Source: a bacterium (lineage in GTDB: Bacteria; CAIWAD01). Taken from it: a stretch of DNA of 64,000 bases. Location of the stretch: assembly GCA_030429345.1 (NCBI GenBank), contig JAUIFJ010000016.1, forward strand, positions 1-64,000, given 5' to 3'. Positions 4,699 to 52,047 of the stretch are shown in pieces (positions within the stretch are counted from its first letter, which is position 1; the number at the start of each line of letters is the position of its first letter). Position numbers and translations under genes: made by a program. The notes beneath the pieces are model-generated. The model made no database searches and had not been told where the DNA came from. It was given only the letters and a program-made list of their open reading frames with translations.

Positions 4699-4718
4699 GC
4701 ACATCACGCTTTCGAGCA
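4663..4718 (+). other. attL core: 56-bp perfect direct repeat
   Basis: These 56 bases are identical to 51992-52047. The first 36 encode the last residues (FNDARKMILLK) and stop codon of the T9SS-sorted protein. The other 20 lie between the stop and the terminator. Identity ends with a C/A difference at 4719, but similarity continues through both following terminators. The integrase gene begins 160 bp away, as expected for an attL site. The exact crossover position within the 56 bases cannot be read from the sequence. Confidence 0.93.
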
Positions 4719-17734: not shown

Positions 17735-18268
17735 ATGATCTATTCCTCCAAAATTGCAGGGCCTACCCCAATGCATTTCCTAGTTCTACTGCTAATTACA
17801 GCTACACCCGTTGATGCTGAAGTGTATCAATACGCTACTGAATCAACTGTCGCTCATTCTGAACAAGGCGATGTTTGCCTTCTATTGCGATTTCCTGGAA
17901 TATCGCTTACTCCGCCAGTTCCAGACGCGCAAGCGGATTCGCTCTGGATGGAATTTGATGCTCAAACCTTTGATGGTCCAATTCTCACTTATCTCGAACC
18001 ATTGCGTACGAGCTGGCAGCAGGAGTCCCCGGCATGGAGTGATGTCGGAGTCTATGCTAATCCTTGGGTGGATCCGTTCGGTATTCCTGTAGAACTTACA
18101 ACCCAAGTTGGATGTCAGGTGAACGTGACAAGACTATACTGTGCTATGGAAGATAGCATGGTTCAAATGAATGGCATCGTGCTTCGTCTGCCGAACGAGC
18201 TGGACAGCAGCACTTTACTGCCGGAACTGCAAAATGTGAGTTTGAACATCTCCTGGAGCGATGAATAA
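17735..18268 (+). CDS. Small exported protein coupled to the giant YD-repeat protein
   Basis: This 177-residue protein (or 165 if started at the ATG at 17771) has a signal peptide (FLVLLLITATPVDA). The mature part resembles a DNRLRE/disaggregatase-type beta-sandwich: a Trp-rich block W-x-x-E-S-P-A-W-S around residues 94-102 with flanking strands. The match is weak. Its stop overlaps the next start (TAATG), so the two are almost certainly co-translated. It could be a partner, chaperone or surface anchor for the YD-repeat toxin. No clear promoter was found upstream. Confidence 0.75.
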   Translation: MIYSSKIAGPTPMHFLVLLLITATPVDAEVYQYATESTVAHSEQGDVCLLLRFPGISLTPPVPDAQADSLWMEFDAQTFDGPILTYLEPLRTSWQQESPAWSDVGVYANPWVDPFGIPVELTTQVGCQVNVTRLYCAMEDSMVQMNGIVLRLPNELDSSTLLPELQNVSLNISWSDE

Positions 18269-21200
18269 TGGCACGTTCTACAAACCACTCTCCGAATGCG
18301 AGCGCTTTTTATTGGATTGGAGTACTCTTTGTTTGTTGTGCAGTAATCCTTCGACCAGCACACTCCTCAGGTGTAGCAGGAGTCCTGTTGGGGATTGACG
18401 GTGGCAGCGGAAGCGATGGTGTGTTTTCGGGTGCAGTAGATCCTAGCTCCGGAACTCTGAGCCTTCCTTTGACGCTAGCCCAGATCCCAGGGATGGCCAG
18501 TGCGAAAGTTGCAATTCAGTACTCTAATCTGATCCAGGAAGAAGTGCGAACACGAAACCAGGAGTCCCAAACTGGCTATGTCGGTCTGGGTTGGCAAATG
18601 GATCATCCTGTAATCTTACGTGACAATGCAGGGACCGGTACATACAAGGACGACACTTTTTACTACAACGGACTAGAGCTTCGTCTCGTCTCCAAAACTG
18701 TCGCTGGAGATCATGGTCATAATCATGCTTTTGAATACTCGCTTCCGAATGCGCCTTATGTATCGGTCTTTCATTATTGGAACGATGAGTCTGATATCCA
18801 GATTAGTAGCGACTATTGGGAAGTCGTTGGTGAGGGAAACTCCGTGCAGCGATTCGGAGGAACTGACGCTTCACGCGTTGTAGGGGTCAAGTGGGGAAAC
18901 TTCATCGGTGCGCGGCCTAGTTTTGAAGAAGAGACAGGTGAACACTATGTCAGTGAATGGCACTTAGATTTCGAAAGATCAGCCCATCAGGTAATGGGTG
19001 GGGAAGGGACGATAGAAGATGTTAACTGGATCGAGTACGATTATGGAAGCACGACCGAGAAAATCATTAGTTATGATGAGCATTTAGATCTAAGTACTGA
19101 TGGTTACATCAGCTTCACACGTGAGATATGGCTCAAGTCTATAAGAAACAATTTGGGCTATGAGATCACACTACTCTATGAGGACAAACCTAGTGCAGAA
19201 GTCGTTGATCCCCACCAGGAGCAACCTGAGCCGGATGCTTACCAGGAACGCTACATCACGAAGCGCTTGGCGGAAGTACGCGTGGCTGGCTATGACGGTA
19301 AGATCCTGAATACGCTGCTCCTCGACTACTCCCTTGAATCTGCCCGTTGTTATGGTACAGATACGGATAACACGGGAACAGTGATCGCTAAATCATTCCT
19401 GAAAGAGCTGATACCTTTCAATAACGGCAGAGAAGACAAGCCGCTTAAACTTGATTACAGACTTGATACACTTCCGGATGAAGATGAATTCTACGGAATG
19501 CTAGAATCTGTGACGCAGCCTTCAGGTCTTCGTACCCAATATGAATACCAGATGATCGAAACGGGTGTAAGTCGCTCCCTTGAAATCAGTCCGCCAGACT
19601 ACTCAGGCCATAGCGATTATACCGGTTCTGGCGAAATGCCCGAAGCCTGGGCAACACCCTCGCATATTGTTGTGACATGGGAGATGCCTGCCACTACTGG
19701 GAAAAGGCTTGTTTGTCAGGTCTATGAGTGGATCGGGGGTTGGCGAAAAACTTTTGAAGATGATCTGGGGCCAGCGACTACTGAAATTTGGACACATAAT
19801 CACCAGAATCTAGATGACGAACTACACTATTATCCGGGGGTACATGTTCAATCCTGGGAAAATACTATTGCAATCGTTCCCAACAAGTATGACACATCCC
19901 CAACAACAGATATGATACTACTTAAGAAAGATTTTAGTAGTACAACATGGAATAGATCAAACTTCGCAATCCGCATCCATCCGAACGAGTCCGATTGGAT
20001 TCAATGTGATAACGACAGGGCAGCGGTTCAGACAGTAGAAATCGCGATGGGGAAGAATTTTATCGTTGCATTGGGGACCATCAGTGGATTCGAAACCAGG
20101 ATCGTTTACAATGAAGTATCACATTGTTGGGATTTCGATGGTGTTCAAGGTGGGGATACTGCATATCCTGAACCTATTACACCCAGTTATTTAGGTTACA
20201 TTGCCCCAAGTGAGTACACCATCGCAACATATGGTCATATCAATATGCCTTTAGACCCGGTCGTCGTTCACCTGACAGATGATTGCCCACTTTCGGTTGA
20301 ATTAGCCGGGTTTAAATCTTATGGTGAGTTCACAAAAAATAACAATAATTATCACGATTATGATTTCACTACTGACATCTATGAAGACATGCGATTTCGT
20401 CGAACACTTGATTACCGAGCTCCGAGGTTTAAGATCTCGGCATATAAGAACTATTACTTTATTGAAAATACATCCTGTATTCCACTACAACCTACTCCTT
20501 TTTTTGAGCAGGCGATCAGTGCTCATGTGGAATCAGTTCATGGCGCCGCATTTGAACAGGACTTCTCTGTAGTATTACTTAAGCCACAAAGTCGGCTGTG
20601 TTACTACGAGGGAAATGCATGGCGGGATGGGGACGATGGTGAAAGAGACGACTGGGTTGTCCTCGGTAATCCACTTGAAAGTTCGGAGTATTACAGCGAC
20701 TTCTTAGTTGGGCAAGATGAAAGGAAATTCATTCGAAATGGTGTATTGCAACCTGTCACTATCTCCCTAGACGCCTTGCCGGGCGCTGTGGTTGTACAGG
20801 GAGAGAATCACTTACCGAATAATTGGGTATCTCGGCCCAAAGTACTGTATCTGAATGAAGACTACACTGTAGGGGAGGTCATTGAGGTATCGAATACGAC
20901 CTTCGAGGGTGAGTCCATGTTCTTTCACTCGTCAACCAGAGCTGTATCCTACGCAGGCGCTATTGCGATCAGTTCCTACCCTGCTGGGCACAATGAAGAT
21001 CGAGTGGAATTCACGTTTATGAATCTGAATGGGGGTATGGTGTATCTTCCTTACCCAAGCCGAGAGAAGAATATGATGATGAAGTGGTTTACAGATAGCT
21101 ATGAAGAGTACCCCACAAATGTGCAAAACAGCTATAAGTTTGATCACATTCCAGTTGAGTTATCTTCTTCTCACAATGTGTTTGGATATGCTGAGACAGG

Positions 21201-24200
21201 TAACGTAAGTTTACCAGGAGCACTTGGTCATATCTTTGTGTTCAATCCTTCAATTGCTTCCTATGATGTTCAAGATGGTTGGACTCATATCGATCTAAGC
21301 CAGGGTGGCGTGGACCCGAGCGGATTTCTGTTCGATTCATATAGAGGCTTGTCCTTCAGCGGAGAAATGCTGCGCACTCGTGATAGAGCCTACTCACGTA
21401 ACCTGCAGGGAGATTTTCAGTGTATAGGTTCGAACTTCATTTCAAGCGGTGAGCTTGAAGAGTGGGAGACCTCAACGTGGGATGACAATATAGAGATTAT
21501 TGAGTATCACGAACGGCCCCACTTTAACATTTCTAAGGTGGTACAAGGTTCAAGATTCTTTGCAGTTTCGGGGGGCAGTGTTACAAATAGTGAAATGCTC
21601 CAAGAGGATTTGAATCATGTCTATATCATAAGAAATGGTAGAGTAATCAATCAGGGAGAATTGTCTATAACCGGGCATTCGTGGATTTCCACAACGACTC
21701 CGTCGAATGTAAGTATCGAAAGTGAAGATGAACGCGGTACGGAGAGTCCGGCTGACGGGCAGTTCCCTGATGAGTACTTCCACAGGGCTGGGGGGAGTCA
21801 AGCAGCTGGGGAGAACCTTGTAATCTACTTTGGTAGTGAAGACCCATCCGCAGAAGTTGCTCGAAATCCCAGGCTGTATACATCGGGAGTATCAATTTAC
21901 CGTATTAATGGTGGAGTGACTGAGGAGTTGGGTTCGCGAGACTACAGTTATCATAATCCAGGGATTCCACAATACCAGAATAGAAGAATACAAGGGCCGT
22001 ATGATGTCTGTGTGGTTTCCCGGGTGGTCATTGACAGTGAATCCGCGAATACTCCAACGATTGCAAGGAGCTACGAGTGGTCGACGACAACGACGTTTGG
22101 AAGTCAATTCTATTGCGATGGTGCAGGTGGATTGCCTGTGCCATATGTATCTCAACATGGTTTGTCAGCCAAATTTCCACAAGTTGACGTGCATACAGAA
22201 GATGCCTCCGGGGCGTCAAATGGTTTTATCCGCAGTACATTTCACCTTCCAGCTGGACCCGAACTGAGTGCTGTATCACCTGGAGGTGTTACAGTGCTGG
22301 ATCGCGCTGCTCTCTATGATCGACTATCCTCCGAAGTCTATGCGGCAGATGGTCGACTCATCAGCAGCAGTGCCAATACGTTTTCGAGTTATTCAGCGGA
22401 TGAAGCCAAAAATGAGCGCTTGTTCAGGGATCGCAAACCGGTGGCCGTCGAAGAGTATGCCAATGGCCAGTTCGGTTTTCTCCAATCGCACTATTCACAA
22501 GTTGGGGAGACGTTCGAACTAAAAGAGTATCGAGTTGTTGAAGCGCTCCGTGAGAGCATTTCGGACTATGGGTATCAAGTAGACGCCAATGCTACCAGTA
22601 CCTCATACATTAGCGAAGAAGTCGACGGCATGGTACCCAGCACCAATGGTGTTTTGTACAGCGATATTGCTGAGCAGATCAACAGACAAACCGAAATCAT
22701 AAGTATGGATGTATACCGTGAGAGGCATGAGGCATCCGGTATTCCAGAGTACTTTACTTTTTCCGAATTGGATCTGCCTCAGACTCCAGGGTATATCGAA
22801 ATTGATCTACAATCTACTGACCGTGTGATCGAACTGTCTTTATCGATGGCTGAATCCATCGGCGATGGAGTCGTATTTGAACTTTATCGCAGCTTTGAAC
22901 ACCAACATGGTTCGGAGAAGAGTCTAGTTAAACTTTTTAATCTGACCCGTGAGATGCTGTTTTTGAATGGAGCTAGCTTAGAATACAAGACGACTTTCTG
23001 TACCAGCGCTAATGGTGGACTGATCGCATTCTTTCCGCAGCAGTCCACCTTCACTCTCTATGTAGAAAGCTATGAGTTGGATCTATCGGATGAACCAGCT
23101 CATGGCGACATCCTTTTGTCCTCGAAGCGGACACAATGGATCGACAGTGCCGAACACTTGCATCCTGACAATCCAGATCAACCCATTGCCTTTTCTACCT
23201 GGGAGCGTATCGGATTCGATGACCAGTCCAGTCAGGCAACATTTAAATGGAATTGGAGTGAAGATACGCAGAATAGCCAATGGAGGATTACTTCACATGG
23301 TGTGCGTTATGGCAGCAATCTAACTGTTACGGCGTCAAAGCAGTTTGATCAATCCCTTATCCGCAATGCTGTTGTTGAGCCATTGGAAGGGACGCGATAT
23401 GAAGGGCAGTATGCACGTATTCGATCCGGGGCTCAGTATCAAAAAGGGGAAATTCCTGTTGCTACTTTCCAGAATGCGGATCATGGAATTTCGGAATGGA
23501 GCTATCTGAATGAAAGCAGTAGTAGCTGGGTTAGCCATGAGAGTTCATTTATCAACTTCGAACACACGGCCAGTGACCAGCTCCCGGACATTAGCAATCC
23601 TTCGGCAGTCTTGCCAACGTTTGATTTTGCTTCACTTTCAGAAAACACGTCTATATGCAGCGAAGCCTATTCAGGGCAATTCGGTTTGCGTCTCGATAGT
23701 AACGGGCAACTTCGAAAGAACTTCGCCCTTGATTGCAGCGACTTGAAACGCTCCTTCGTCTTTTCCTGTTGGGTCAAGACGATGGAGAACTACAGCCTGG
23801 TGCAAAATCCGGACGGAACTATCCAGCGAGGTGCCTACCTTGCAATTCGCCCGATTGAAGATGCTTCACGAACAACACGCCAGGATCCTCAGTTTCCCGC
23901 TCTGGGGGGAACTCCCCATTCTTGGCCTGATGTTGTTGTTCCTATCCCGGAGGGACATGACCAGGAGTGGCAATATGTTGAGGCAACAATTGACCTGACT
24001 CAGATCCCTCAATCAGCAGTCAGTCAATTGATAGCAGATTTCGGCGAGGTGGTGTTTTGGCTACGACCGTTTATTGCCAATGCGAATGATCCATTTTCCG
24101 AGAGTATCATTGTAGACGATGTACTTTTCTATCCAAGCAACTCCGCTGTGGAAGCCAATGTTTACGATTATCGCAAGCATGCATATGTAGCGACACACAG

Positions 24201-27200
24201 AAATGATGGACACGTGACGCGTACGACTTTCGCAGAAACAGGGGTCGAAGTAGCTAAGACCACAAATTTAGCTCCTCCGACTCTATTGACAGCGCTTGGC
24301 CTCTTCGCACACTCCTACAATCATCCTGATGGTAACATTGGTGTCAACCGTGGCTACACATTCAAGTCGACACACTCCTACAACGAACATGTGCAATACC
24401 GCAATGCCGGATTCACCGACTGGAGTCTCGGACACATACCGGACAAGAAGGATGGATGGTACTCGGATCAAGCTCAAGCAGCCTGGGATGTGTTACCGGT
24501 ACTGGGTGATGGGTATTCGCCGAGAAAAGTAAGTGAAGCAGCTATTCCGCTCGAGCACTTTGATTTGTCGGACGTGCCCAAGGCTTTCTACTTGAAAGTC
24601 AACACCGAGCAAGTTGACTGGCTTGATTCGACCACCGGTGAAATACGGACACTCGAATTCACATTTGATGACGATGATGCAACTACAGCAGATCCTCGGG
24701 TCGTTTACCAGCCATACGAGAGCAGTTATCTAGCATATATACTTGAAGGTGGAATTGAAGTCCATCATCCGGAAGGACCTCCAAGTTTCTCGCTCTTTCT
24801 CGGCTCTTCAAGTACACCGAAAGCTAGTTTCGAGCTGGGTATTCACGATATCGAAGATCTAGTAGTCTATGCCTCTGAGGGCCATCTGAGCTTCTTCGTC
24901 GGAAATGCGGAAGTTTTCAATTGGCGCTATCAAGAAATGTCTGAGGATGGCATGATGCACTCAGGCCAGTTGAAGCTCTACGCGCCGGAGGGCTTTTTCC
25001 TCGAAGAGTATATCTACCTCAGAGATGTATTGAGGTCTTGCGTCTTCACGGATGCACTTGGAAATGTCTTGCAAACCCAGCGCGAAACCACCTTCGCAGG
25101 ATTCGCGACACCGATCGAGATTTCGCAGACTTTGTATGACACTTTCAATCGGCCCTATGTCACGACGATTCCCGTCGTTATGAACGCGAGCTGGTGGCGA
25201 GAGCATGTCAACGGCGGCCTGTATGAGGGTGATGAGGATTGCGGAGACGACCCCGATTGTAGGCGAACGTTGCACGTTCGCCTGGGACAGTACCAACCCG
25301 AGTTCGTCGAAAGCTATGATTCAACTGCGGATCAGATTACCAGTGGCCTGATTCTTGAATACTATGACGGGAGCGGCTTTGTCAGCCCCCTGCCGGCAAT
25401 TAATAATGATGCAGAAATCGGTTCAACACATGATTTGAACTACACTGGGCTTGCTTTCGGGAATCGGCCTCATACCCGCACGTTGTACGATGATAGCCCG
25501 TCCTCTCGCAAGCTGACTGTTATCGATCCCGGCGAAGGGAGGGACATATCCAGCAGTTCCAGTTGGCTAGAAGAAACCAATCAATCATGGTGGATGGGGT
25601 ACGCGCCTGGACAGATCCACATCCGTACGGATTTCGACGTCCGTGGTGATTACGTGCAGTCGTATACGAACTCCATGGGGCAGGTACTGTGCGTTAAGAG
25701 CTCAACAACGGAGTCATTCCTGCAAGTGCCACAGGATCCATTGATTCGATTCTCGGTTAAGAAGTATGACAACTACGGAAACCTCGTTGCCGAGTCCGAT
25801 CCTAAATACGCAACTGCATTTGATCCCTCCTACCAGGATGGTGGAGTCTTCTACAATGTAACCCATGAATACTCCGAGGACCGAACGCATCTGATTGCCT
25901 CGCATCGTATCGACGACGAGTCTGAATACTTTGTCTACGATGCTCTCGGCATACTCCGCCTAACCTGGGCTGGGCATGCGATCTCCGAGAAAGGCACCTA
26001 TAATTATTATAAGTACGATCGCTTCGGCCGTGTGCTGGAAGAAGGCTACATTTCATTGCCGCCGATGACCGATCGCAATGTGCTTGAGGACCTGGTCAAT
26101 GATGCTGACTGGCCACGTAAGACTGAAGGCGCTATCCTGCGCAACCGCTATGAGTATGCGAACGATAATGGTCCTTATAATCGAAACGTTCTGACGTTGA
26201 TTGAATCCAGCACGAATTCCGACTGGGAACCAGAGTTTCGCGAGGAACTCGTCTACGGTCCCCATGGCGTTCTTCTTCGGCAATTCGAAACCTTACAAGA
26301 CCACGACTGGGGCGTGGATTCTCGGACGACCCAGTTCGAATATGACCATCGAGGTCGTGTCGCACGTCTAATCTATCCTGACCTGGCGGCTACGGAACTC
26401 GAGTACACTTATGACGACGCAAACAGCGGTCGTCTAACAGACATTCACCAGGTGCTGCCCTCCGGCAGCAAGAGGCACTGGGCCCAGTATATCTACAACT
26501 TGCGTGGTCAATTGGAGCAAGAAACTCTGGGCAAGGGAATGGCTGGCAGCCAGGAGAAGGAAATTGTATACGATAACTTGGGCCGCAAGCGCCAGGTCAG
26601 AAACCAATCGAGCAAGGATGGCAACAGCGGTGGATATTTGTTCCAACAACAGTTCTACTACGAGAACGACTTCAGTAACCATCAGTTTGGGCAGGTTTCA
26701 GAACTGTTCTCCTTAAGCGGACCTACGGTAGGTGGCACCCTAATCGAAGCGGATGTTTTCACAACCGCGAATGCCTACACCTACTCCGGAACCGGTCAAT
26801 TACAGAGTGCTCGTCATTACCGGGAGGACGGGACGGTCAGCTACTCGATGACAGACATCGAACATGATCTGAACGGCAATATCTTCAGCTGCCGGGAAAA
26901 CGGTGCGCTGATGCAATACACATATAACACCATTAATGGACAGGAATCGAATCAGGTCCACACGGTCGTCGGAGCGGACTTGGATCGCCTATACATGTAT
27001 GACGGCCTGGGTCGCGTTAGTAATTCCTACAATGATGGATCCGCGGCCAAGACTATTGAATACGATCCCTTCAACCAACGAACAAGTCTGATGCAGCTCC
27101 CGGACAACGACAACCGGGTTCGTTATGACTACGATTCCGCCCAGAGAAGAGTCTATAAACAGCATTACCGATACATAACGGACCCCTATAAGAAATTGAA

Positions 27201-28683: not shown

Positions 28684-28705
28684 TAAAAATCGTAGGAGCT
28701 CTACT

Positions 28706-29251: not shown

Positions 29252-29484
29252 GATTTTTAAGGTGGCATCAATATGATTTCCATGATTTCACATTCATTTA
29301 AACTAGTGAAAATGTAGCTTCTGTCTTTAATCTGCAACGGAAGTTCGTCAGAGTTGCTGTCTATAGATATGGGGATCCAGTATTCTGCCTCATTTGGACA
29401 TCACAATGGAAGTATATGAGGCAGTTCCAGATCGTTCCGGTATGAGTGTGAGCCTGTCAAAATGCTCAGTATTAGGGTACAAAT

Positions 29485-29898
29485 CTAGTCTCTAACTCGC
29501 TCTGAGATGCTGTTTCTTTTATCAGCGTGCCAAACATTGAAGACGTTGTCTTTGTCAAAGTCAATTACTGAAGTTGCCAGGACCACAAAGTTCGTATCCG
29601 ACGCGCTCTCCATACTGATAATATACCGTGCAGTCCCGTTCTCCGTTACGAGCGTCTCCTGGCGAAAACCAATCTCATGTAAGTCCATGCTATAGCGATC
29701 GTGTTCCTGGTAGTAAGCCTTTTGCAAAGTGATGACTTGTGCCAACATCAATTTCGCTTCCGCTGATTTGGCCTTGAAAATGACGCCGGAGTACTTAGGC
29801 AATGCAAGTACAACCAGGATCCCAATAATGATCAATACGACAAGCATTTCAATTAGCGTGAAGCCGCGATCCGAGTGTCGCTTTGTTCCAAGAAGCAT
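29485..29898 (-). CDS. gspG: Major pseudopilin (GspG/type IV pilin-like)
   Basis: This 137-residue protein has a short basic leader, then the prepilin cleavage motif RGFTLIEM with Glu at +5 and a hydrophobic helix (LVVLIIIGILVVLALP). This is the N-terminus of class III prepilins. The C-terminal part is small and has a VFNVWH end, as in major pseudopilins. Its start overlaps the stop of the gspF-like gene (TAATG). It is the last gene of a five-gene minus-strand operon. It would form the pseudopilus or thin pilus. Cleavage needs a prepilin peptidase, which I did not find in the element. Confidence 0.9.
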   Translation of the reverse strand: MLLGTKRHSDRGFTLIEMLVVLIIIGILVVLALPKYSGVIFKAKSAEAKLMLAQVITLQKAYYQEHDRYSMDLHEIGFRQETLVTENGTARYIISMESASDTNFVVLATSVIDFDKDNVFNVWHADKRNSISERVRD

Positions 29899-30953
29899 TA
29901 GAAACCTCCTTGTGTAGACAATTCAAAGATGGGAAGATAAACTGCAATTAGGATGATCGCTACTACCATGCCGACACTGAGGATGATCATCGGTTCCAAT
30001 GCGGCAAAGAAGCGTTCTGTCAACGATTCAATTTCCTCTTCCAACTGAGCACGTATCAGCACGATTCCGTCTGCCAGCTTTGAGCTGTCTTCGTGTGCAG
30101 CCAGAATCTGCGTGTAGTCAAGATGAAGAAAATGAAACTTGCTTAGCGATTCTGAAAGGCTGCGTCCCTGGACTAGGCCTTTTTTGAGGCTGCGATAGAC
30201 TTTCTGTTCCAGGAAGCTACGACAACCATGACTTGTAAGAGTAAGTGCGTCATAAAGAGGTACGCCATTTCGCATAAGAAGACCCAGAAGCTGCAGATTG
30301 CGAATCAGGGATAGCCGCAGCAATGTATCGCCAAGCACTGGGAGTCTCAGCATTCCTTTCTCCCATAGGAGGGCAATCTTGCGATTGCGCCGGTAAAACT
30401 TCGAGAGGAAGAAGATCACGAGAATAAGCACTACGAAGATCAGGAAGTTTTGTCGCAAGAATAAACTGCAGCTCAACAGCCACTGGGTAATCCAAGGCAA
30501 TTCCAGCGACATAGTTCCAAAGATCTGTTCAAAGCGGGGCAAAAGGAAGAACAAGAGAAACAGTACTGTCAAAATCGTGATAGCCAGGATGATCATTGGG
30601 TAGAGCAGCAATGTGAAAAGCTTACTCTTCAGTTTCTGACGTTCATAAAGATAGTGACTGACTTCTTGTACGGCATTGGCTAATCGGCCACTTTCTTCAC
30701 CGGCACGGATTACACTTACGGTGTGACTTTCGAAGTACTGCGGAAACAACTCAAGGGATGAAGAGAAACGATGTCCACTGGCGACTCGATCATGGAGTCG
30801 TCGTAGAACACTAGAAAATCTTCGCGCTACTGAGCGTTTCAGACTATTCGAGCTCATTTCCAAAGCAGGTTGCAGAAGCACTCCACCCTTAAGGAGTGTG
30901 GCCAATTGGCGCATCAATCGAAGGACGTCTGCAGAGTTTCGATGCTTCCTCAC
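29898..30953 (-). CDS. gspF: Inner-membrane platform protein (GspF/PilC)
   Basis: This 351-residue protein shows the duplicated T2SSF domain. The first cytoplasmic half (about 10-110) has LATLLKGGVLL and ESGRLANAV. A hydrophobic hairpin follows (about 115-190). The second half (about 215-315) has the matching NLQLLGLLMRNGVPLYDAL and HEDSSKLADG. A last membrane helix lies at about 321-343. The protein anchors the ATPase and drives pseudopilus assembly. It is slightly short compared with typical 400-residue members, mainly at the N-terminus. It overlaps the pseudopilin gene downstream and lies 5 bp from the gene upstream. Confidence 0.92.
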   Translation of the reverse strand: MRKHRNSADVLRLMRQLATLLKGGVLLQPALEMSSNSLKRSVARRFSSVLRRLHDRVASGHRFSSSLELFPQYFESHTVSVIRAGEESGRLANAVQEVSHYLYERQKLKSKLFTLLLYPMIILAITILTVLFLLFFLLPRFEQIFGTMSLELPWITQWLLSCSLFLRQNFLIFVVLILVIFFLSKFYRRNRKIALLWEKGMLRLPVLGDTLLRLSLIRNLQLLGLLMRNGVPLYDALTLTSHGCRSFLEQKVYRSLKKGLVQGRSLSESLSKFHFLHLDYTQILAAHEDSSKLADGIVLIRAQLEEEIESLTERFFAALEPMIILSVGMVVAIILIAVYLPIFELSTQGGF

Positions 30954-30958
30954 TGGTT

Positions 30959-31531
30959 TCAGCTATCCTTACTTTGGATGCACTGATGTAGCCAATAGGG
31001 ATACTTTGCATGCGGTGCAAAGCGGTGCTGCAAGTGAAGGGAGTCACGTCCAAGCGTGTTTGTGAACCAGGCCTGAAGGGATATCCCTTCCAAGAATAGA
31101 AAGGGTCTATTCCGTTTAGGTTGACTTAGATCGAATGCAGAATTGGGGGACAGGAAGACTTCTCGGGAGTTTCGCTGATCGAGAACGAGCAACATGACTT
31201 GCAGTGAGTCTAATACTTGTTTACGAAGTAGATTTTCTCCTAAGCGACTGGGTTCATGCTCCATGCCAGTGTAGTTTACAGTCCGGTCTGACCGAGGCAG
31301 ATGAATGATGTACTTGTCAAATTGCAGAATTGAATGCCTTCTGGAAACGTCCTTCAGAAATGTGCGTTCGAATTCCAGAATCTCCGCGTCAAGTTGCTGA
31401 CGAGTGTGCCAGTCATTGAAATACTTGAACTGGCTGGAAAGGAATAGCAACGTCAACAAAGTTACGAGAGTCCCAAGTGCAAGTGCAGTCAGAACCTCGG
31501 GAATTGTATATCCTGAATCAGCGTAATGCAT
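30959..31531 (-). CDS. Minor pseudopilin (GspJ-like)
   Basis: This 190-residue protein begins with a prepilin-type leader and SGYTIPEVLTALALG, followed by a hydrophobic helix. The Phe of the usual GFTLIE motif is replaced by Tyr, and Glu at +5 is kept. The size and order next to GspI-like and GspF-like genes fit GspJ. The rest is not clearly conserved. Its start overlaps the previous gene by 14 bp, so translation is probably coupled. Confidence 0.8.
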   Translation of the reverse strand: MHYADSGYTIPEVLTALALGTLVTLLTLLFLSSQFKYFNDWHTRQQLDAEILEFERTFLKDVSRRHSILQFDKYIIHLPRSDRTVNYTGMEHEPSRLGENLLRKQVLDSLQVMLLVLDQRNSREVFLSPNSAFDLSQPKRNRPFLFLEGISLQAWFTNTLGRDSLHLQHRFAPHAKYPYWLHQCIQSKDS

Positions 31532-31859
31532 GCGATCTAGTACTCTGAAGCGTAGAGTAGGCGAGTGAATCTTGGGTTAGCTCAACCGTGATCCTCCATT
31601 GGGCCTGTTGCCTGATAGCACTTGTACGTATGCGATTGTGATACGATCCTATTGAATCAGATACGAACAGCGACTCCAGTGCTTGCAGTTGAACCCGCTT
31701 GTCCTTAAGTGGGCGTTGGAAGCGCGAACTGTTTGCAAAACTCCAGAAATGAAGGCTTACCAGTAGTAGAAAACCCACTAGAATCATCGAAACAAGGACT
31801 TCAGTCAAACTAAACCCAAGATCTTCACATTGAATTGATCTCATCTCTGTCGATTCCAT
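31518..31859 (-). CDS. Minor pseudopilin (GspI/GspH-like)
   Basis: This 113-residue protein has the prepilin motif LGFSLTEVLVSM with Glu at +5, then a hydrophobic helix (ILVGFLLLVSLHFW). The short length and TEVLVSM wording resemble GspI. It overlaps both neighbours in the operon (19 bp upstream, 14 bp downstream). Confidence 0.8.
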   Translation of the reverse strand: MESTEMRSIQCEDLGFSLTEVLVSMILVGFLLLVSLHFWSFANSSRFQRPLKDKRVQLQALESLFVSDSIGSYHNRIRTSAIRQQAQWRITVELTQDSLAYSTLQSTRSHALR

Positions 31860-33064
31860 AAGACGGATAATGGTGCATCACTGAACAGGGGGGGGAGTGG
31901 GAAATCTGGCGGCAGTTTCCTTCTGTCAATGCGAACTCGATCCATATTATTGATGTAGTTGATTCGGTTTCTCTTCTGCAGTACTTCCGATGCACAGAGG
32001 AACCCCTTGATTTCGCCAACTACCTCCACTGGTGTATTTGACAAGATTCCACCCAGCATAGCCGAATGAGAAGAGAACAGTACGCCAACCGTTGAACTTC
32101 CATTTCCAATTGGGTGCTCGTAGCTGATTAACGCCCCCTCAATTGTGGAATGGTCGGAGACGGCGATCATGGGTTTTGGACTCGAACGCAAGGAATCATG
32201 AATAGTCAATGCAATGGACGGATAGACGAGAGTCGAATGATCTTGGATTTGTATGCCTTCCTTGGATATCAATTCACCTTGCAGGCTGCAATGATCTTTT
32301 ACAGTAATCTTGCCAGTAGCATATGCCACTACATCACGGATATGAACTCTTCCCTGAAAAAAGACAGAATCAGTGCATAGTAGAGTCAGTCGGCAATTCA
32401 GTTCCTCGGTTCCTTCAATCCTGAGCGCACTTTCGGACCAAATGAACAGATCCTCCCGTGGAGACTCATCATCCAGAACTAGCGTTGTTGGGCCTCCAAA
32501 GAACGCGCATCGTGTCAGTTCAATCAGTGTGCTGACAAGAACGCGGTCTTGCTGGAATCTGCTATTGGAGCTAGGATTTTGTAGTTCTCTGTCGAATCGA
32601 CGAAGAACTTCTCCAACTCGGCTTGAGTCGAAGACACCTGGTAGAGAAGCTTCAGAATCCAGGTGAATGTCTTCCTGGGGCCAGTTCTCGTAGCGTTCTT
32701 CTGGTTCCATGCGAAAGTCTTTTGTCGAGCACGCTATAAGACCGCTGATGGTGCTGCTTTCTTGAATGATGACCAGCGGCGATAGTTTGTGCAGCCTAAG
32801 TGCTCCTTTGAAGACATGGCTTGCCCATTGACCGATCAAGAAGACTCGTTGAGAATCCGAATCCACAGATTCCAGATACAAGCTTGGGTTGGACCCTGTA
32901 TATGGAACCAATTGCTCCTCAGTGTAGATGGATTCTTCATTCCAATCCACCCGCCCAATGCTCATGAGCGTTATGCCCACAAGCACAAAAAGAAGAATTG
33001 ATGCAGTTAGAACGGATATCAATACATAGCCGAAAGGCTCGCGCATGGCTTGCCTTTGCGCCAT
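31841..33064 (-). CDS. Pilus-associated membrane protein with bactofilin-like beta-helix (PilX/GspK position)
   Basis: The start at 33064 is chosen because longer readings run across the divergent gspE-like start; it gives 407 residues (33046 is an alternative). The N-terminus has a pilin-like helix (REPFGYVLISVLTASILLFVLVG) without the Glu at +5. It occupies the place of PilX or GspK at the head of the minor pseudopilin operon. From about residue 180 the chain shows short repeated strands (for example VFFQGRVHIRDVVAYATGKI, then KDHCSLQGELISKEGIQIQD), suggesting a bactofilin-like right-handed beta-helix. I know no standard secretion protein with this fusion. It may cap the pseudopilus or bind cargo; that is inference. 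Confidence 0.75.
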   Translation of the reverse strand: MAQRQAMREPFGYVLISVLTASILLFVLVGITLMSIGRVDWNEESIYTEEQLVPYTGSNPSLYLESVDSDSQRVFLIGQWASHVFKGALRLHKLSPLVIIQESSTISGLIACSTKDFRMEPEERYENWPQEDIHLDSEASLPGVFDSSRVGEVLRRFDRELQNPSSNSRFQQDRVLVSTLIELTRCAFFGGPTTLVLDDESPREDLFIWSESALRIEGTEELNCRLTLLCTDSVFFQGRVHIRDVVAYATGKITVKDHCSLQGELISKEGIQIQDHSTLVYPSIALTIHDSLRSSPKPMIAVSDHSTIEGALISYEHPIGNGSSTVGVLFSSHSAMLGGILSNTPVEVVGEIKGFLCASEVLQKRNRINYINNMDRVRIDRRKLPPDFPLPPLFSDAPLSVLWNRQR

Positions 33065-33127
33065 GATCGAATCTTCGTTCACATACCTTATGTTGTCTTG
33101 CATCAGATACCTAAGGCATTGTACCGA

Positions 33128-34174
33128 ATGTTCACACTGCACAACGTCAAAGTACTGTTTCAGGAAATTACTTCTCGGGCGCGGAAAGATCGTTGCAGTG
33201 ACATTCATATTGAATGTTACAAGACTGAAGCCCGAATTCGAGTCCGCAAGGACGGTAGTCTTAGTGACCTTACGCGGTTCCCACTGCCAACTGTTCGCCA
33301 GCTCATCGGACATATCAAGGTACTCGCACGTTTGGATGTAGCCGAAAAACGGCTACCGCAGGATGGAAAGATTCGAACCGATGAAGGCCTTGATGTTCGC
33401 GTTTCTTCTGTTCCCTCCCTGCATGGCGAGAAGATCGTTTTGCGCCTCCTGGATACAGCATCAGTGACATACAGTCTAGACGCCATAGGGCTGGACAAGA
33501 AGCAGCAGACGATTGTGTCGGAAGCATTGAACGCACCGCAAGGACTTGTGCTTGTAACAGGACCAACGGGATCTGGGAAAACGACAACAATCTATGCCGC
33601 GCTACAGAGAATGAACAAGCCGGATGTAAACATTCTTACGATTGAAGATCCTGTTGAATACGAGATTTCGGAGATCACCCAAACACAACTGAACGACGAG
33701 ATTGGCTATACGTTTCCGAAAGCCTTACGAGCATTTTTGCGTCAAGATCCAGATGTCATTTTCGTAGGTGAAATTCGCGATGAGACGACAGCCCAAATCG
33801 CAATCCGCGCCGCACTGACGGGTCATCTTGTATTGAGCACGCTTCATACGAATAGCGCGGTTGAGAGCATTACTCGTTTGCTGGACATGGGGGTTCAACC
33901 CTACCTCTTGGCCGCTACGCTTCGACTTGTTGTAGCGCAAAGACTCGTACGCCGGACACGGACAGGTACTGGGGAACAGGCTGGACGAATGGGTGTTTTC
34001 GAAATCCTTTCAGTATCGCAACGCATCCAGGATGCAATTCACCGACAGGCGGCCCCCGCTGAATTCCGCGCACTATTGAAGAGTGAACATTTTATTGATC
34101 TGCAAACAGCTGGAGAAGGACTGTTGGAACGTGGGTTGACAACTCGTGAGGAATTGATCCGTGTATTGTCTTAG
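33128..34174 (+). CDS. gspE: Secretion/pilus assembly ATPase (GspE/PilB-like, short form)
   Basis: The ATG at 33128 gives 348 residues; an upstream TTG at 33050 would overlap the divergent gene. The core ATPase domain is complete: CSDIHIE and the Arg-rich N2 region, Walker A GPTGSGKTTT (145-154), Asp box IEDPVEYE, Walker B DPDVIFVGEIRD and His box LVLSTLHTN. The usual N-terminal MshEN/N1 domain is missing. The four-cysteine zinc loop of GspE and PilB is replaced by a short RRTRTGTGEQAGR stretch. It would power assembly of the pseudopilus or pilus. It heads a plus-strand operon divergent from the pseudopilin operon, with about 60 bp between the two starts. Confidence 0.92.
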   Translation: MFTLHNVKVLFQEITSRARKDRCSDIHIECYKTEARIRVRKDGSLSDLTRFPLPTVRQLIGHIKVLARLDVAEKRLPQDGKIRTDEGLDVRVSSVPSLHGEKIVLRLLDTASVTYSLDAIGLDKKQQTIVSEALNAPQGLVLVTGPTGSGKTTTIYAALQRMNKPDVNILTIEDPVEYEISEITQTQLNDEIGYTFPKALRAFLRQDPDVIFVGEIRDETTAQIAIRAALTGHLVLSTLHTNSAVESITRLLDMGVQPYLLAATLRLVVAQRLVRRTRTGTGEQAGRMGVFEILSVSQRIQDAIHRQAAPAEFRALLKSEHFIDLQTAGEGLLERGLTTREELIRVLS

Positions 34175-36044
34175 AGTGATCGTCTTGCTCTTGCTGAGTT
34201 TGTATTCCTCGATGTGCGTGGCGAATACAATTGTTGATCCCCCAGAAGACGGTTATTGGCATGAGAAGATTGAGAAGATCTACTTCTCCAATGCACGTGT
34301 TGTGGATGTCCTACAGGGACTTGCCAAACAGTATAGTTTGAACTTAATCGCAGATCCTAGTCTTAGCGCAAATGTTAGTCTGTATCTCCATGATCTCAGC
34401 CCTTGGGAACTGATTGTTTTCTTGGCCAATGAGTATCCTATCGACTTCCAATGGAGTGGCTCCATTCTTCACGCCAGGAGTTTGGATCGAAGCCTGAATA
34501 GTCAGGAAGTGGGCGGGGAGAACCTGACACTTTCAAGGCAAGATTCAACAGTGACCCTGCACGCAAAGGCAGTTCCCATAGAGCAGTTTTCAAGGCTTGT
34601 GGCGGATTCGCTAGAAATCAACTTAGTGTATACGCCTTCTCTCCAGGCATCAATCAGTGGCAGGCTAGTTAATCTTGAGCCAATACTTGCTGTGAGCTAT
34701 TTGCTTGAATCAAATGGACTAGTCGTACAGCAACGGGAAAGAACCCTGTTTCTTGAACGTGCTGGCCCCGAGTATCGGCCCCGCAGACGACATTCAAGAA
34801 GTATCAGCTTGCAAGATACCCTGATTGGAATCCACATACAGGATGCCGAAATAGGAGAAGTGTTAGGCGAGATTGCGGAACGAACGAAGACAGATCTTGT
34901 TATCTATTCGGCTCCTAGTGGCCGTATCACAATTTCTGCAGATAGCCTGAATGTCGAAGAGGCATTTTCATTGCTGTTTCAGAATACGGCACATACGTAT
35001 AGGCGGAGTGGACAACGATACTTAGTTGGCGATTCAGGCATGCAGAGCTTGGCAAGCTCGGAGCTGGTAGCCCTGGCACATATCAAGTCAGATCGCGCAT
35101 TGGAAATGTTGCCACAGTCATTGACCAAGAATGCGGAAATCCGCGAGATCAAGGAACACAACAGCTTGTTGGTTGTAGCAGAGAAGAATCTCGTAAGGCA
35201 GATACGGGAACACCTTGCAATGGTGGATAAGCGAGTGCCGCAAATTCTACTTGAAGCGATGGTGGTGGATTACAATCTCAATGATGATCGGATCTTCAAG
35301 ATCGAAGCTGGTGTCGATGAAAGCCTGGGCAGCGAGCCACTAAGCATGGGCTTCTATCCCTTCATCAGTGGCAAAGTCAGTAAAAGTGGCTTACAGCTCT
35401 ATGGAGATGGTCTTTCAAATGCACTAAACACAAACATTGCCCAGTTGCCAGATAACTTCTATGCGACGATCAACATGATGAATCAAGTCGGCGCTGCAAA
35501 TGTGCGAAGTAAACCCCACCTGGCCACATTGAATGGGCATTCTGCCACCTTAACTGTGTCAACGACACAGTACTTTATCTTCGAAACAGAGACTGTTGTC
35601 CCCAATCAGGGAGGGGCAACCACACAAACCTCACAGAGATTCGAACAGATCTCAGCAGATGTGAAACTGGAGATCACACCCTGGGTAAGCGCAGGCGGTG
35701 AAGTGACAGTGGAAATTACGCAAGAACTCTCGACACCTGTAGGTTCTTTCTCACCGGAAGTGCCTCCAACAATAAACTCTCGATCCATTACAAGTACAGT
35801 CAGACTTCAGGATGGCGAAACCATTGTACTTGGTGGTTTAATCACAGAAACTGACACGGACACTCAAAGTCGCTTCCCGATACTTGGTAGCCTGCCTTTC
35901 ATCGGTAGATTTTTCCGGAATTCAACGACCAGTACTTCCACGTCCGAGCTGGTAATCTATCTGACGCCTCAAGTCAATTTCGAATCCGAACTCGAGGTCG
36001 AGCCGGACTCGCTTCAGCTATTGCATGACAGCAGTGAAGATTAA
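34161..36044 (+). CDS. gspD: Outer-membrane secretin (GspD/PilQ/MshL-like)
   Basis: The GTG at 34161, overlapping the ATPase gene by 14 bp, gives 627 residues with a signal peptide (IVLLLLSLYSSMCVA). Several N-domains follow. STN-like modules lie around 35-100 and again at about 120-190 and 220-275. An N1-type domain lies near 300-350 (IKEHNSLLVVAEKNLVRQI). The C-terminal secretin domain (about 365-610) has VRSKPHLATLNGHSA, DGETIVLGGL and FPILGSLPFIGRFFR, then LVIYLTPQV. It forms the outer-membrane gate. Multiple N-terminal STN copies resemble PilQ and MshL more than classical GspD. Confidence 0.92.
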   Translation: MYCLRVIVLLLLSLYSSMCVANTIVDPPEDGYWHEKIEKIYFSNARVVDVLQGLAKQYSLNLIADPSLSANVSLYLHDLSPWELIVFLANEYPIDFQWSGSILHARSLDRSLNSQEVGGENLTLSRQDSTVTLHAKAVPIEQFSRLVADSLEINLVYTPSLQASISGRLVNLEPILAVSYLLESNGLVVQQRERTLFLERAGPEYRPRRRHSRSISLQDTLIGIHIQDAEIGEVLGEIAERTKTDLVIYSAPSGRITISADSLNVEEAFSLLFQNTAHTYRRSGQRYLVGDSGMQSLASSELVALAHIKSDRALEMLPQSLTKNAEIREIKEHNSLLVVAEKNLVRQIREHLAMVDKRVPQILLEAMVVDYNLNDDRIFKIEAGVDESLGSEPLSMGFYPFISGKVSKSGLQLYGDGLSNALNTNIAQLPDNFYATINMMNQVGAANVRSKPHLATLNGHSATLTVSTTQYFIFETETVVPNQGGATTQTSQRFEQISADVKLEITPWVSAGGEVTVEITQELSTPVGSFSPEVPPTINSRSITSTVRLQDGETIVLGGLITETDTDTQSRFPILGSLPFIGRFFRNSTTSTSTSELVIYLTPQVNFESELEVEPDSLQLLHDSSED

Positions 36045-37044
36045 TCTCCAGTACCCTCTTCGTCGCGTTCTGCGCATCGAACTTGGAAGAGAGGGTGTTA
36101 CTCTGAATGCTTATGAACAGAGCATTCTTGGGTTTTCATCCGAACCTCTTCTGAAGAGCGGTGCAATTGATTCCATTGAGCAGGCTACTTGGTCCTATCT
36201 TAACCGGGAGGATGCTTGCATCTGGGATCTGCAAGTGATCCTGAATCCTCCCTATGTTCGACAGATCCTTTTAGCGCATGGTGACGAAGTTGATTTTGAG
36301 GAGATCGCGGAACACGTCGAGGAAATGACAGGCCTAAAAGTCTCGAAGCAGAATCTACTTTGGCGGAAGGCACCAAGCGAAGCAGAGCATTCTTACGAGT
36401 GTCTTGTACCCGACTTTGGCGAAATAGATAGACACTTGTCACAACAGTTTACAGAGCAGTTTAGCACAAGCCAGTTCTACTGTGGTAGTTCACTTGACAT
36501 GGAAAGTGTGCATAGCAAGAAAGTGATGTTGCCACACAGTGCATACTTCGGCGATGTCGTTGACATGCTAACGAAGCATGCTTTCTTCCTATATGCTGCG
36601 CGTTGCTTTGGTGCGGTTGTTTCACTTGTCTTCATTCTTCTTGTCACAGCAAGTCTGATTGGTGTAACAAAGCATGTTTACGATCGCTTTCATCAGGCCA
36701 GCGATAGTATTCAACAGGAAATCCGCGATTTGGAGGAGTCTGTCGCTAATGCTGCCATGGCTGTTGACGCAAACAGTCAGTTGGGTAGGCATCGAAGTGG
36801 CTTCACACAATTGGCACAGGCAATCGAGATCTACATACCCAGCGAAGTACGACTTCGCAACCTGGAGTATACGCAGCAGACAAATCGTTTCAATTTGCTT
36901 GCCGAAACAAAGAATACACTTGCCGTGGCAGCAATTCTGGACTCTCTGAATGCGCATACTCGAATCGATTCCTGCCGAATGGTCTCTGCATTGTCAAAGA
37001 AGAATGGTCTCATTGAATTGACAATACAGGGTTGGATGCAATAG
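36025..37044 (+). CDS. Inner-membrane assembly protein (GspL or PilM-PilN fusion-like)
   Basis: This 339-residue protein has a cytoplasmic N-terminal part (about 1-190) that looks like a decayed actin-like PilM/GspL domain (RVLRIELGREGVTLNAYE). One membrane helix (about 200-222) is followed by a coiled coil and a small PilN-like ferredoxin-type periplasmic domain with IPSEVRLRNLEYTQQ. That arrangement matches GspL, which recruits the ATPase. It overlaps the secretin gene by 20 bp and the following gene by 13 bp. Confidence 0.82.
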   Translation: MTAVKINLQYPLRRVLRIELGREGVTLNAYEQSILGFSSEPLLKSGAIDSIEQATWSYLNREDACIWDLQVILNPPYVRQILLAHGDEVDFEEIAEHVEEMTGLKVSKQNLLWRKAPSEAEHSYECLVPDFGEIDRHLSQQFTEQFSTSQFYCGSSLDMESVHSKKVMLPHSAYFGDVVDMLTKHAFFLYAARCFGAVVSLVFILLVTASLIGVTKHVYDRFHQASDSIQQEIRDLEESVANAAMAVDANSQLGRHRSGFTQLAQAIEIYIPSEVRLRNLEYTQQTNRFNLLAETKNTLAVAAILDSLNAHTRIDSCRMVSALSKKNGLIELTIQGWMQ

Positions 37045-37595
37045 TGAGCAGGCAAATCAGGAACTATCTGCGTGACTGGCAACCTTCGAAGATCCAGTTA
37101 GTTGTTTGTAGTGTTTTCTCTATCGTCCTCCTGACGGCTTGTATAAGGATTGCAGTATCAACTCTTCTTGCTCAGAGCTCCTCCTTCTTGGACACGATTC
37201 ATCACAGTAAACAAGCCAATGAGCTGCATGAACAGCTTCAGAAGCTGTCAAATCAATTGAATCTGTATTCGAACATTCTGGATCAGGGCAAGAGTGCACC
37301 CTTTTTCCAAGAAGAAAGCACTGTCATCGGGTGGTTGTTCTCTCAATCGGCCAACCTTGGAATTGATAGCAATTTATCTGTACATCCTGGAAGCAAATAT
37401 ATAGAGAATGGTTACTGCTTTCAGACGTATACAATGCAAGGCAAGTCCGGATACAAAGAGCTAATGCAGTTCATTTCCCTCTTAGAGGTCGATGCCAGAT
37501 TCTACTCTACACCAGAGGTTTCATTTCAGAGCTCGGTTGCTGGGCTGGCTATTTCATTTGATCTAACAGTACTTCATGGCGGATTGTGCAAATGA
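37032..37595 (+). CDS. Inner-membrane assembly protein (GspM/PilO-like)
   Basis: This 187-residue protein has one N-terminal membrane helix (about 23-45), a heptad-rich coiled coil (about 60-90) and a small alpha/beta periplasmic domain (about 95-185). The pattern and the position directly after the GspL/PilN-like gene match PilO or GspM. Sequence similarity is low, as usual for this family. It overlaps the previous gene by 13 bp and ends in an ATGA overlap with the next. Confidence 0.78.
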   Translation: MDAIVSRQIRNYLRDWQPSKIQLVVCSVFSIVLLTACIRIAVSTLLAQSSSFLDTIHHSKQANELHEQLQKLSNQLNLYSNILDQGKSAPFFQEESTVIGWLFSQSANLGIDSNLSVHPGSKYIENGYCFQTYTMQGKSGYKELMQFISLLEVDARFYSTPEVSFQSSVAGLAISFDLTVLHGGLCK

Positions 37596-38044
37596 ATCGC
37601 AGGGCAGTTACCATTTTACTGAGTATTGTGGCATCGTTAATCTGGTTCAAGGCAGGATGTCAGATCATTGATATTGGCGAACAAAGGATGGCACCAATTC
37701 ATTCACCTGTCGTATCGAATGAGAAAGGTCCCCTGGACCTCCCGTATACGATGTACAGGTTCCACAGAGATCCATTTGATTTCAAGATGATCCGAGAAGT
37801 GCCACCTCAAGCAGCTGCAGGAAGTAAGTTAAAGCAGAAGGTTGTCAAACCTAAGTTGGAGCTACAGGGCGTTGTTCAAGGCCGCAACTCAGCAACAGCT
37901 TTGATAAGAACTCAGGATAGGGGTGCTCAAACGACAGTAGTTACTGTTGGTGATACGTTAGATGGCTTTGTTGTTCACACTATCTCTACAGACTCATTAG
38001 TACTTAAACAGCTAACGGACGGGCAGCTTGTTCGGATTCCGTAG
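37592..38044 (+). CDS. Pilotin/alignment protein (PilP/GspC-like)
   Basis: The ATG at 37592 overlaps the preceding stop and gives 150 residues (a GTG at 37586 adds two). An N-terminal hydrophobic segment (residues about 6-25, ending at a Cys) may be a membrane helix or lipoprotein signal. The C-terminal part (about 85-150) is a PilP/GspC homology-region-type beta domain: LELQGVVQG, then VTVGDTLDGFVVHTIS and a final LVRIP. Such proteins link the inner-membrane complex to the secretin. It is the last gene of the plus-strand operon. The gap 38045-38322 holds no other gene. Confidence 0.8.
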   Translation: MNRRAVTILLSIVASLIWFKAGCQIIDIGEQRMAPIHSPVVSNEKGPLDLPYTMYRFHRDPFDFKMIREVPPQAAAGSKLKQKVVKPKLELQGVVQGRNSATALIRTQDRGAQTTVVTVGDTLDGFVVHTISTDSLVLKQLTDGQLVRIP

Positions 38045-38258: not shown

Positions 38259-38362
38259 TGTTACACTCTTCTACTTCGAGAAAGAAAACAGTAATCTACT
38301 GTATAGAACTGGAGAATGGGGTTTACAGAAATTGTAACCAGCTTTGCCGATTGTAACTCCGG
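38259..38362. repeat. Imperfect ~100-bp repeat, copy 2
   Basis: This is the partner of 17207-17311, described there. Here it includes the last codons and the downstream sequence of the CoiA-like gene. Both copies, read on the minus strand, encode a similar short tail (K-L-V then hydrophobic residues, ending F-L-S-x), which suggests a shared origin for the sequence rather than chance. Confidence 0.5.
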
Positions 38363-51991: not shown

Positions 51992-52047
51992 TTCAACGAC
52001 GCGCGGAAGATGATCCTCCTCAAGTAGGCACATCACGCTTTCGAGCA
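51992..52047 (+). other. attR core: 56-bp perfect direct repeat
   Basis: This is identical to 4663-4718. Here the bases no longer belong to an intact gene: the upstream sequence is element DNA, so the codons for the last T9SS residues are an orphan copy. It is followed by a second terminator and then host genes. It marks the right boundary of the element. Confidence 0.93.

Follow-up and report, generated by a model that had tools for sequence, protein, structure and literature searches.

The window analysed here is a stretch of 64,000 nucleotides, contig JAUIFJ010000016.1 (C60), from a bacterial genome of 4.24 Mb in 92 contigs, estimated 98% complete (G000, the host). Within it lies a 47-kb integrative element in which a giant exported YD/RHS protein, accompanied by a small partner and a candidate immunity gene, adjoins two divergent operons for a machine resembling the type II secretion system (T2SS) (table 1). 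The segment is an integrative element because it carries an integrase and perfect 56-bp repeats at both of its GC borders: its GC content is 47% versus 63-64% in the host, or 0.474 between the repeats and 0.627 and 0.641 in the flanks.

Table 1. Positions of the border, toxin and machine features in the window, with the basis of each assignment; G057 is a genome of another phylum.
Feature	Position	Strand	Basis
Left 56-bp direct repeat, putative attL	4663..4718	.	Perfect match to 51992-52047, GC border
Tyrosine integrase, phage-type	4879..6009	+	PF00589 E 8e-23, PF13102 E 4e-10
Small exported-type protein, 177 aa	17735..18268	+	Sequence only, without family match
Giant exported YD/RHS protein, 3471 aa	18268..28683	+	Signal-like N-terminus, YD region, RHS core, tip
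Peptidase_M74-like tip segment	28261..28485	+	Residues 3332-3406, partial profile coverage
Candidate immunity protein, 181 aa	28706..29251	+	Next after toxin gene, signal-like N-terminus
GspG-like major pseudopilin	29485..29898	-	N_methyl E 1.6e-9; 60% identity to G057 protein
GspF-like platform protein	29898..30953	-	T2SSF E 5e-40; top NCBIfam model GspF, 219 bits
GspJ-like minor pseudopilin	30959..31531	-	Prepilin-like N-terminus, position; E 2e-7 to G057 J; no Pfam match
GspI-like minor pseudopilin	31518..31859	-	N_methyl E 0.0012, under curated cut-off; position; no pairwise match to G057 I
GspK-like large minor pseudopilin	31841..33070	-	Prepilin-like N-terminus by eye; E 6e-14 to G057 K
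GspE-like assembly ATPase, 348 aa	33128..34174	+	T2SSE E 3e-108; top NCBIfam model GspE, 408 bits
GspD-like secretin	34161..36044	+	Secretin E 9e-41; 39% identity to G057 secretin
GspL-like inner-membrane protein	36025..37044	+	Location after D and before M/C, as in G057; pairwise E 3.1, not significant
GspM-like inner-membrane protein	37032..37595	+	Position only; no pairwise match to G057 M
GspC-like protein	37586..38044	+	T2SSC E 7e-4, under curated cut-off; E 0.003 to G057 C
Right 56-bp direct repeat, putative attR	51992..52047	.	Perfect copy of left repeat, GC border

The YD/RHS protein starts with a hydrophobic, signal-like segment, and its N-terminal region is shared with a partner protein in G057. 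The RHS-associated core (TIGR03696, residues 3060-3133) scores 65 bits against a cut-off of 32.5. In the tip, the Peptidase_M74 profile is matched in part, over positions 14-87 of its 240, with 30.9 bits in the whole protein (cut-off 25; E 2.6e-7) and E 1.1e-8 for the tip alone; the NCBIfam MepA model gives 31 bits, far under its cut-off of 272. The tip also contains an HQxGxxxD motif and, downstream, an HLH motif, elements that we take to be typical of M74/LAS peptidases. The sole PDB matches of the protein at E<=0.01 were the mosquito proteins SGS1 (8fjp, E 2.3e-26) and SGS4 (9on3, E 6e-25), spanning residues 2893-3148; a PDB search with the tip alone returned no match, and the AlphaFold model of the tip region (predicted local distance difference test, pLDDT, 52.6) was too poor and was left out of fold searches. 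Residues 1-2966 found no match among plasmids. PF05593 found no match at all in the host genome, and RHS genes were located with TIGR03696 instead. The small upstream gene overlaps the YD gene by a single base, the last of the one being the first of the other. The gene next after the toxin is an immunity candidate by its position and signal-like start; an exported product fits, since a toxin acting in the periplasm would need an exported immunity protein.

The neighbouring machine has the secretin, assembly ATPase and platform protein of a T2SS. For each of them a Gsp model ranked first in NCBIfam, GspE with 408 bits versus 403 for PilB, GspD with 179 versus 157 for PilQ, and GspF with 219 versus 190 for HofC and also above the PilC models; all three miss the curated cut-offs (630, 351 and 424 bits, respectively). 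The ATPase is short when compared with the 451 residues of its G057 counterpart. Searches with Pfam, NCBIfam and pairwise comparison to G057 recognised G-, I-, J- and K-like pseudopilins in the element and no GspH. The K-like gene lies in a 490-aa minus-strand open reading frame (ORF; 31841-33313) that we judge over-long because the ATPase gene starts divergently near 33128, its likely start being near 33070-33090. No prepilin peptidase was found among the 28 element proteins scanned with Pfam, the set to which this search was confined in the host. On the contig of the element there is one PF00437 match and no PilT-type second ATPase, the retraction ATPase of type IV pili; the two other T2SSE matches of the host above cut-off, both from contig C8, resemble PilB and PilT.

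Much of what a first-pass annotation of this DNA had described is thus borne out, namely a transferable integrative element, a signal-bearing YD/RHS protein of 3471 residues with a coupled small exported protein and a candidate immunity gene, in a toxin/immunity-like arrangement, and two divergent operons with ATPase, platform protein and secretin. Its GspL/M/C-like parts held for C, through a weak match, while L and M were placed by position, and its four pilin-like proteins held for G (N_methyl) and for K and J (similarity to G057), I being assigned from position and a weak prepilin motif. The same annotation had named as an alternative that the machine takes up DNA and that the toxin is cargo unrelated to it; the machine would then be a DNA-uptake pilus that shares its island with the YD toxin. 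The GspG-like pilin is indeed matched by ComP_DUS as well, above the cut-off of that model (E 7.5e-7), and the gene directly after the machine (38323-39054) has a nuclease-like look and a sub-threshold match to the competence family CoiA_N (E 0.0064), two features that would fit a competence role; machine and toxin both lie on a mobile element. However, the top NCBIfam scores went to GspE, GspD and GspF and not to competence models, no ComEC-like protein was matched among the 28 scanned proteins, and the linkage recurs in several phyla and on plasmids, as described below; we therefore regard this alternative as very improbable.

The relatives sample consisted of 60 genomes including the host, with three of the same family, one more of the class and the others sharing the domain only. 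By far the best secretin match among them was that of G057 (489 bits); in the three other genomes of the host family the best match was partial (2.6e-22), and at E<=1e-60 G057 stood alone among 245 genomes of its own phylum. In G057 the machine is encoded by one operon, K-I-J-F-G-E-D-L-M-C-O, where O is a prepilin peptidase, and YD genes start about 200 bp past its end on the same strand. Both blocks of genes, K-I-J-F-G and E-D-L-M-C, recur in the window, but in divergent orientation. The first YD gene of G057 encodes a 1933-aa protein homologous to the N-terminus of the window protein (28% identity over 501 aa, E 4e-35) and is followed by a 1119-aa RHS-core gene; both products have signal-like starts. 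The YD halves, two genes in G057 and one fused gene in the window, presumably compare with the B and C halves of Tc-like toxins. Beyond the RHS gene lie several small exported-type ORFs, four of them interrelated, and an orphan tip shares 54% identity with the C-terminal end of the 1119-aa protein. As judged from sequence, this is polymorphic-toxin anatomy. Genome-wide, there is one RHS-core match in the host and one in G057, each beside the machine.

The coupling extends well beyond this pair, within the phylum range set by the genomes searched. A phylum of 167 genomes was taken, Fibrobacterota-like as deduced from the Fib_succ_major domain in neighbour genes of two loci. Secretins were classed by score as A (>=360 bits), B (290-360) or lowest (<290, inferred to be ordinary T2SS), the cuts being set after the scores were known, and RHS cores in the carriers were listed down to about E 1e-7. 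Among the matches listed, 14 of the 31 class A loci lay <=20 kb from an RHS core, against 0.97 expected under uniform placement; 0 of 200,000 simulations gave a count as high as 14. For class B the count was 1/26 (0.56 expected), G730 having been placed there through a truncated match at a locus of the RHS-linked kind, and for the lower-scoring secretins of the same genomes 0/20 (0.59 expected). Conversely, members of the YD N-terminal family scoring >=400 bits lay <=25 kb from a class A (or the G730) secretin in 8 of 11 cases, where 0.18 were expected. Among the 79 genomes of genus g174 that were listed, RHS cores were present in 14/15 genomes with the machine and 21/64 without it, and the YD family in 10/15 and 4/64, respectively; Fisher tests on these counts ignore relatedness and are descriptive only. 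The carriers are related genomes, mostly of one genus, and are not independent.

Gene order and phylogeny are in line with this coupling. Iterated profiles traced arrays of the form E-D-L-M-C-K-(I)-G, then a YD gene of ~2500 aa and an RHS gene of ~1700 aa, lengths partly cut by the extent of the stretch taken; the profiles were applied at lenient settings to a limited number of ORFs, and some of the faint L, M, C, I and J labels may be wrong. In the window, the labels of these five parts rest on table 1 and not on the iterated profiles. Array and YD/RHS pair share one strand in G692 and G781, and the toxin pair is divergent from E-D-L-M in G756 and G712. In a secretin tree of 63 rows, a clade of 33 with full support (SH-aLRT, the Shimodaira-Hasegawa-like approximate likelihood ratio test, 100) holds the window, G057 and 17 of the 19 RHS/YD-linked rows, so that linked rows number 17/33 inside and 2/30 outside (G513 and G630). 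The window and G057 are long branches whose exact placement is unsure; the RHS-linked G727 is missing, its secretin having been lost in the ORF filter, and G668 was counted as linked through a YD-like protein at a contig end, a protein to which NCBIfam gave no match. The secretin alignment had no match in viral contigs and two distant ones in genome contigs. One genome, G799, holds four class A/B secretin loci (C23, C27, C42 and C72), and the machine can therefore multiply within a genome.

The pairing is also found on plasmids. At E<=1e-20 the window secretin matched 7 of 72,556 plasmid records (a listing at E<=1e-40 gave three plasmids, without Pontibacter, though the latter stands at 4e-50; the seven were used). 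Five of the seven carry RHS cores <=20 kb away: pHIC of Haliovirga abyssi, two plasmids (6 and 14) of Persicobacter sp. JZB09 and two of Flavobacterium; Flavobacterium jumunjinense, like Haliovirga abyssi and the Persicobacter isolate, is a cultured carrier. Haliovirga abyssi belongs to Fusobacteriota, and eight genes separate secretin and RHS gene on pHIC; in one of the Flavobacterium plasmids the RHS core reaches 31.7 bits versus the cut-off of 32.5. The 40-kb Persicobacter plasmid L178 (CP012857.1) consists largely of the T2SS-like operon and a YD/RHS gene pair. The five are not independent, the two Persicobacter plasmids coming from one isolate and the two Flavobacterium plasmids sharing proteins. 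Overall, 1,288 of the 72,556 plasmids have an RHS-core match, and the Persicobacter cases are weaker than they look because other replicons of Persicobacter carry them too. As for the remaining two, the Pontibacter plasmid has a 2423-aa exported-type non-RHS giant in place of the RHS protein, and the Comamonas plasmid an ordinary T2SS without RHS.

Across the relatives, most of the long YD/RHS proteins look exported, and their C-terminal ends vary. A signal-like N-terminal hydrophobic stretch was observed in 24 of 26 long YD/RHS ORFs, a count that leaves out ORFs <600 aa or cut by the locus end and includes one protein twice, through overlapping loci; of the two ORFs without it, one looks mis-started and the other is the second of two neighbouring RHS genes. 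The C-terminal tips vary between loci, some being alike (L101 with L109, L111 with L114). When ten tips were scanned, the only matches above cut-off were M74 in the window and M23 in G513 (E 2.4e-33), both peptidoglycan endopeptidase families; one further tip had a weak match to DUF4347 (E 0.0012), and for the other seven nothing notable was matched. Many of the ORFs downstream of the tips look exported or lipoprotein-like, the exceptions at L111 being transposase-like. By eye, the YD protein beside a T2SS in G630 (L064:2706-10432) shows, past the signal region, a double-glycine-like stretch, and its gene adjoins a small C39-peptidase-like exported gene.

Some YD partners and machines may share a domain. 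DUF7305 was found at the C-end of 3 of the 4 YD partners scanned (L107:7728-15467, L109:6817-13713 and L113:7292-14863; one of the matches passes the curated cut-off), and four K subunits as well as one YD partner show bactofilin-like matches under threshold; neither was matched in the window and G057 proteins, and a K-only profile gave one weak match to a YD protein among the long ORFs. We take the shared K/YD domain as only a lead, a physical link being possible. These matches hint at common beta-helix parts and would suit a YD protein displayed on, or regulating, a pilus-like fibre instead of being released, as proposed for Bdellovibrio, where, in the part of the article available to us, two RHS genes lie beside pilus genes and a pilus-regulation role is put forward for a third, Bd0109 (PMC3818213). 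On the other hand, a single assembly ATPase, unaccompanied by one of PilT type, was matched on the element contig; GspC is weakly matched in the machine, GspL- and GspM-like genes are placed by position, and variable tips followed by small exported genes point to a toxin. Display or regulation thus appears quite improbable.

Several observations weigh against reading the element as a polymorphic toxin together with its exporter. Among the matches listed, 17 of the 31 class A machines have no RHS core <=20 kb away; some of these are on short contigs or near contig ends, but others, in G336 (1.04-Mb contig) and G799 (176-kb contig), are not so placed, and their genomes have RHS genes elsewhere. 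YD N-terminal relatives at 250-400 bits are mostly unlinked (2/13 linked), and the machine is not obligatory for RHS/YD carriage, because g174 genomes without a class A secretin still carry RHS cores (21/64) or the YD family (4/64). Across 386 broadly sampled genomes, matches to the secretin profile at E<=1e-70 came from 8, and matches to the YD N-terminal profile at E<=1e-8 from just 4 (G000, G057, G602 and G520); G000, G057 and G602 are in both sets, and the YD copies of G602 are not on its machine contigs. Giant exported-type non-YD proteins, which may be alternative substrates, stand beside related machines in G396 (2612 aa; L046:1-7837), G629 (at least 1210 aa; L066:5873-9502) and the Pontibacter plasmid (2423 aa; L179:31866-39137). 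To these must be added the competence-like features of the GspG-like pilin and of the gene after the machine, the partial coverage of an M74 match that does pass its Pfam cut-off, an immunity candidate that matched nothing in Pfam or NCBIfam, lacks known relatives and gave a model too poor for use in fold searches (AlphaFold pLDDT 35.2), and the doubt as to whether a YD cocoon fits through a secretin.

The unlinked class A machines, the giant non-YD neighbours and the RHS genes that machine carriers hold elsewhere in their genomes would be expected of a general-purpose accessory T2SS, exporting several giant surface proteins, with YD/RHS toxins as one frequent substrate gathered in the same accessory region. 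Such a machine agrees less well with the 0/20 linkage of the lower-scoring secretins of the same genomes, with the single RHS-core match of both the host and G057 falling at the machine, and with the operon-like continuity between machine and YD genes in G057, G692 and G781. We consider it rather unlikely, if a rival to be reckoned with.

Overall, our best reading of the comparisons is a T2SS sub-lineage that would be coupled to Sec-routed RHS/Tc-BC-like polymorphic toxins, with dedicated export of the YD protein by the machine being likely. The export idea gains strong comparative support because the pairing recurs across phyla and plasmids. The co-occurrence of machine and YD toxin, which the first-pass annotation had proposed to check, is far above simple chance expectation, and the finding by which it would have been refuted, homologous machines never accompanied by YD toxins, is contradicted by G057, where YD genes directly follow the machine operon. 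Its suggestion of a dedicated exporter is supported by the recurrence of the coupling and tempered by the unlinked class A machines and the other giant exported neighbours; "self-contained" was somewhat overstated, toxin and machine being present and a prepilin peptidase not recognised in the 28 scanned proteins. We find it reasonably probable that the element carries a polymorphic toxin together with its exporter. Whether these loci amount to a new delivery class, in which a T2SS sub-lineage would act as dedicated exporter of Sec-routed Tc-BC/SGS-like Rhs toxins, as a mobile exporter-toxin-immunity cassette spreading via integrative elements and plasmids across phyla, is in our estimate evenly balanced.

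It is plausible to propose the following course. The YD protein, made with a Sec-type signal, would cross the inner membrane and fold in the periplasm as a Tc-BC/SGS-type cocoon around its C-terminal tip. A host prepilin peptidase, presumably from the host's own type IV pilus, would process the pseudopilins, and the T2SS-like machine, with its single ATPase and pseudopilus, would pass the YD protein through the secretin to the surface or medium, as the recurrent genomic coupling suggests. The tip, a predicted M74-type murein endopeptidase, may then attack the peptidoglycan of nearby susceptible cells, the producer's periplasm being protected by the exported 181-aa protein, a role consistent with gene order and with relatives, where several RHS tips are followed by small genes whose products look exported or lipoprotein-like. 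The integrase would move the whole set by inserting it into the 3' terminus of a host gene, in agreement with the repeats and GC content. To our knowledge, the way out of diderm cells taken by giant YD/RHS proteins with a signal has yet to be established; the pairing of machine and toxin in unrelated bacteria and on plasmids points to an overlooked route of weapon delivery against rivals, and could bring to light an antibacterial secretion system that is mobile and falls outside the paradigms of the type VI secretion system (T6SS) and contact-dependent inhibition (CDI). The recurrent linkage, with named plasmid carriers, makes YD/RHS export from diderm cells directly testable.

The element has further features of its own. 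Its insertion site is the 3' terminus of a host gene that codes for a protein, and it restores the end of that gene: the left repeat takes in the 3'-terminal part of host ORF 397-4698, stop codon included. The product of this ORF has, by eye, a C-terminus resembling a secretion-sorting tail. tRNA genes are the commoner integration site, and ARAGORN found no tRNA in the window. Pfam identified DUF932, PD-(D/E)XK, DUF5906 and HTH proteins among the other element genes, the DUF5906 protein having no match in phage records. An OLD/GajA/AriA-like AAA-TOPRIM gene at 39260-41281 (PF13175 E 2e-21; PADLOC matches to AriA, GajA and Old) is likely an anti-phage defence gene, as its predicted domains suggest, and two exported-type proteins with FGE-sulfatase domains are encoded at 9426-10694 and 45729-46910.

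Parts of this arrangement have precedents. In the portions of these sources available to us, T2SS/Sec is listed as an export route of RHS toxins, without signature neighbour genes (Zhang et al. 2012; PMC3482391), Myxococcus Rhs4/5 are signal-bearing, lie on prophages and act without T6SS (PMC10433427), and the secretion of Photorhabdus B and C subunits is the subject of a dedicated article (PMC3789776). The literature covered, seen partly in excerpt and with most subscription journals outside its scope, yielded no description of a T2SS operon coupled to RHS toxins. The Bdellovibrio genes bd1292 and bd3309 are similar in that an RHS gene lies beside type IV pilus/secretin genes, yet in the text available they are treated as pilus regulators, without a T2SS-operon, variable-tip or mobile-element argument (PMC3818213). 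With the T2SS (Gsp) the window machine shares GspE, GspD, GspF and GspG matches, to which come a weak GspC match, candidate equivalents of K and J, and L, M and I as placed by position; unlike it, all of its matches fall under NCBIfam equivalog cut-offs, the ATPase is short, the K subunit large, GspH and prepilin peptidase were not recognised in the element, and the operons are coupled to YD/RHS genes. SGS1 and SGS4 are the PDB matches of the YD protein, which differs from Tc toxins and SGS proteins by its signal-like N-terminus; a TcA-type injector was matched neither among the 28 element proteins nor, like SpvB, among 18 window proteins scanned with Pfam. No PAAR-type match appeared in Pfam scans of the toxin and its neighbours. 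With Rhs/YD polymorphic toxins (WapA, Myxococcus Rhs4/5, T6SS Rhs effectors) the window protein shares YD repeats, an RHS core, a tip that varies between relatives, a small downstream gene and orphan tips in relatives; it differs from them in bearing a Sec-type signal in a diderm and in having a T2SS-like operon adjoining its gene.

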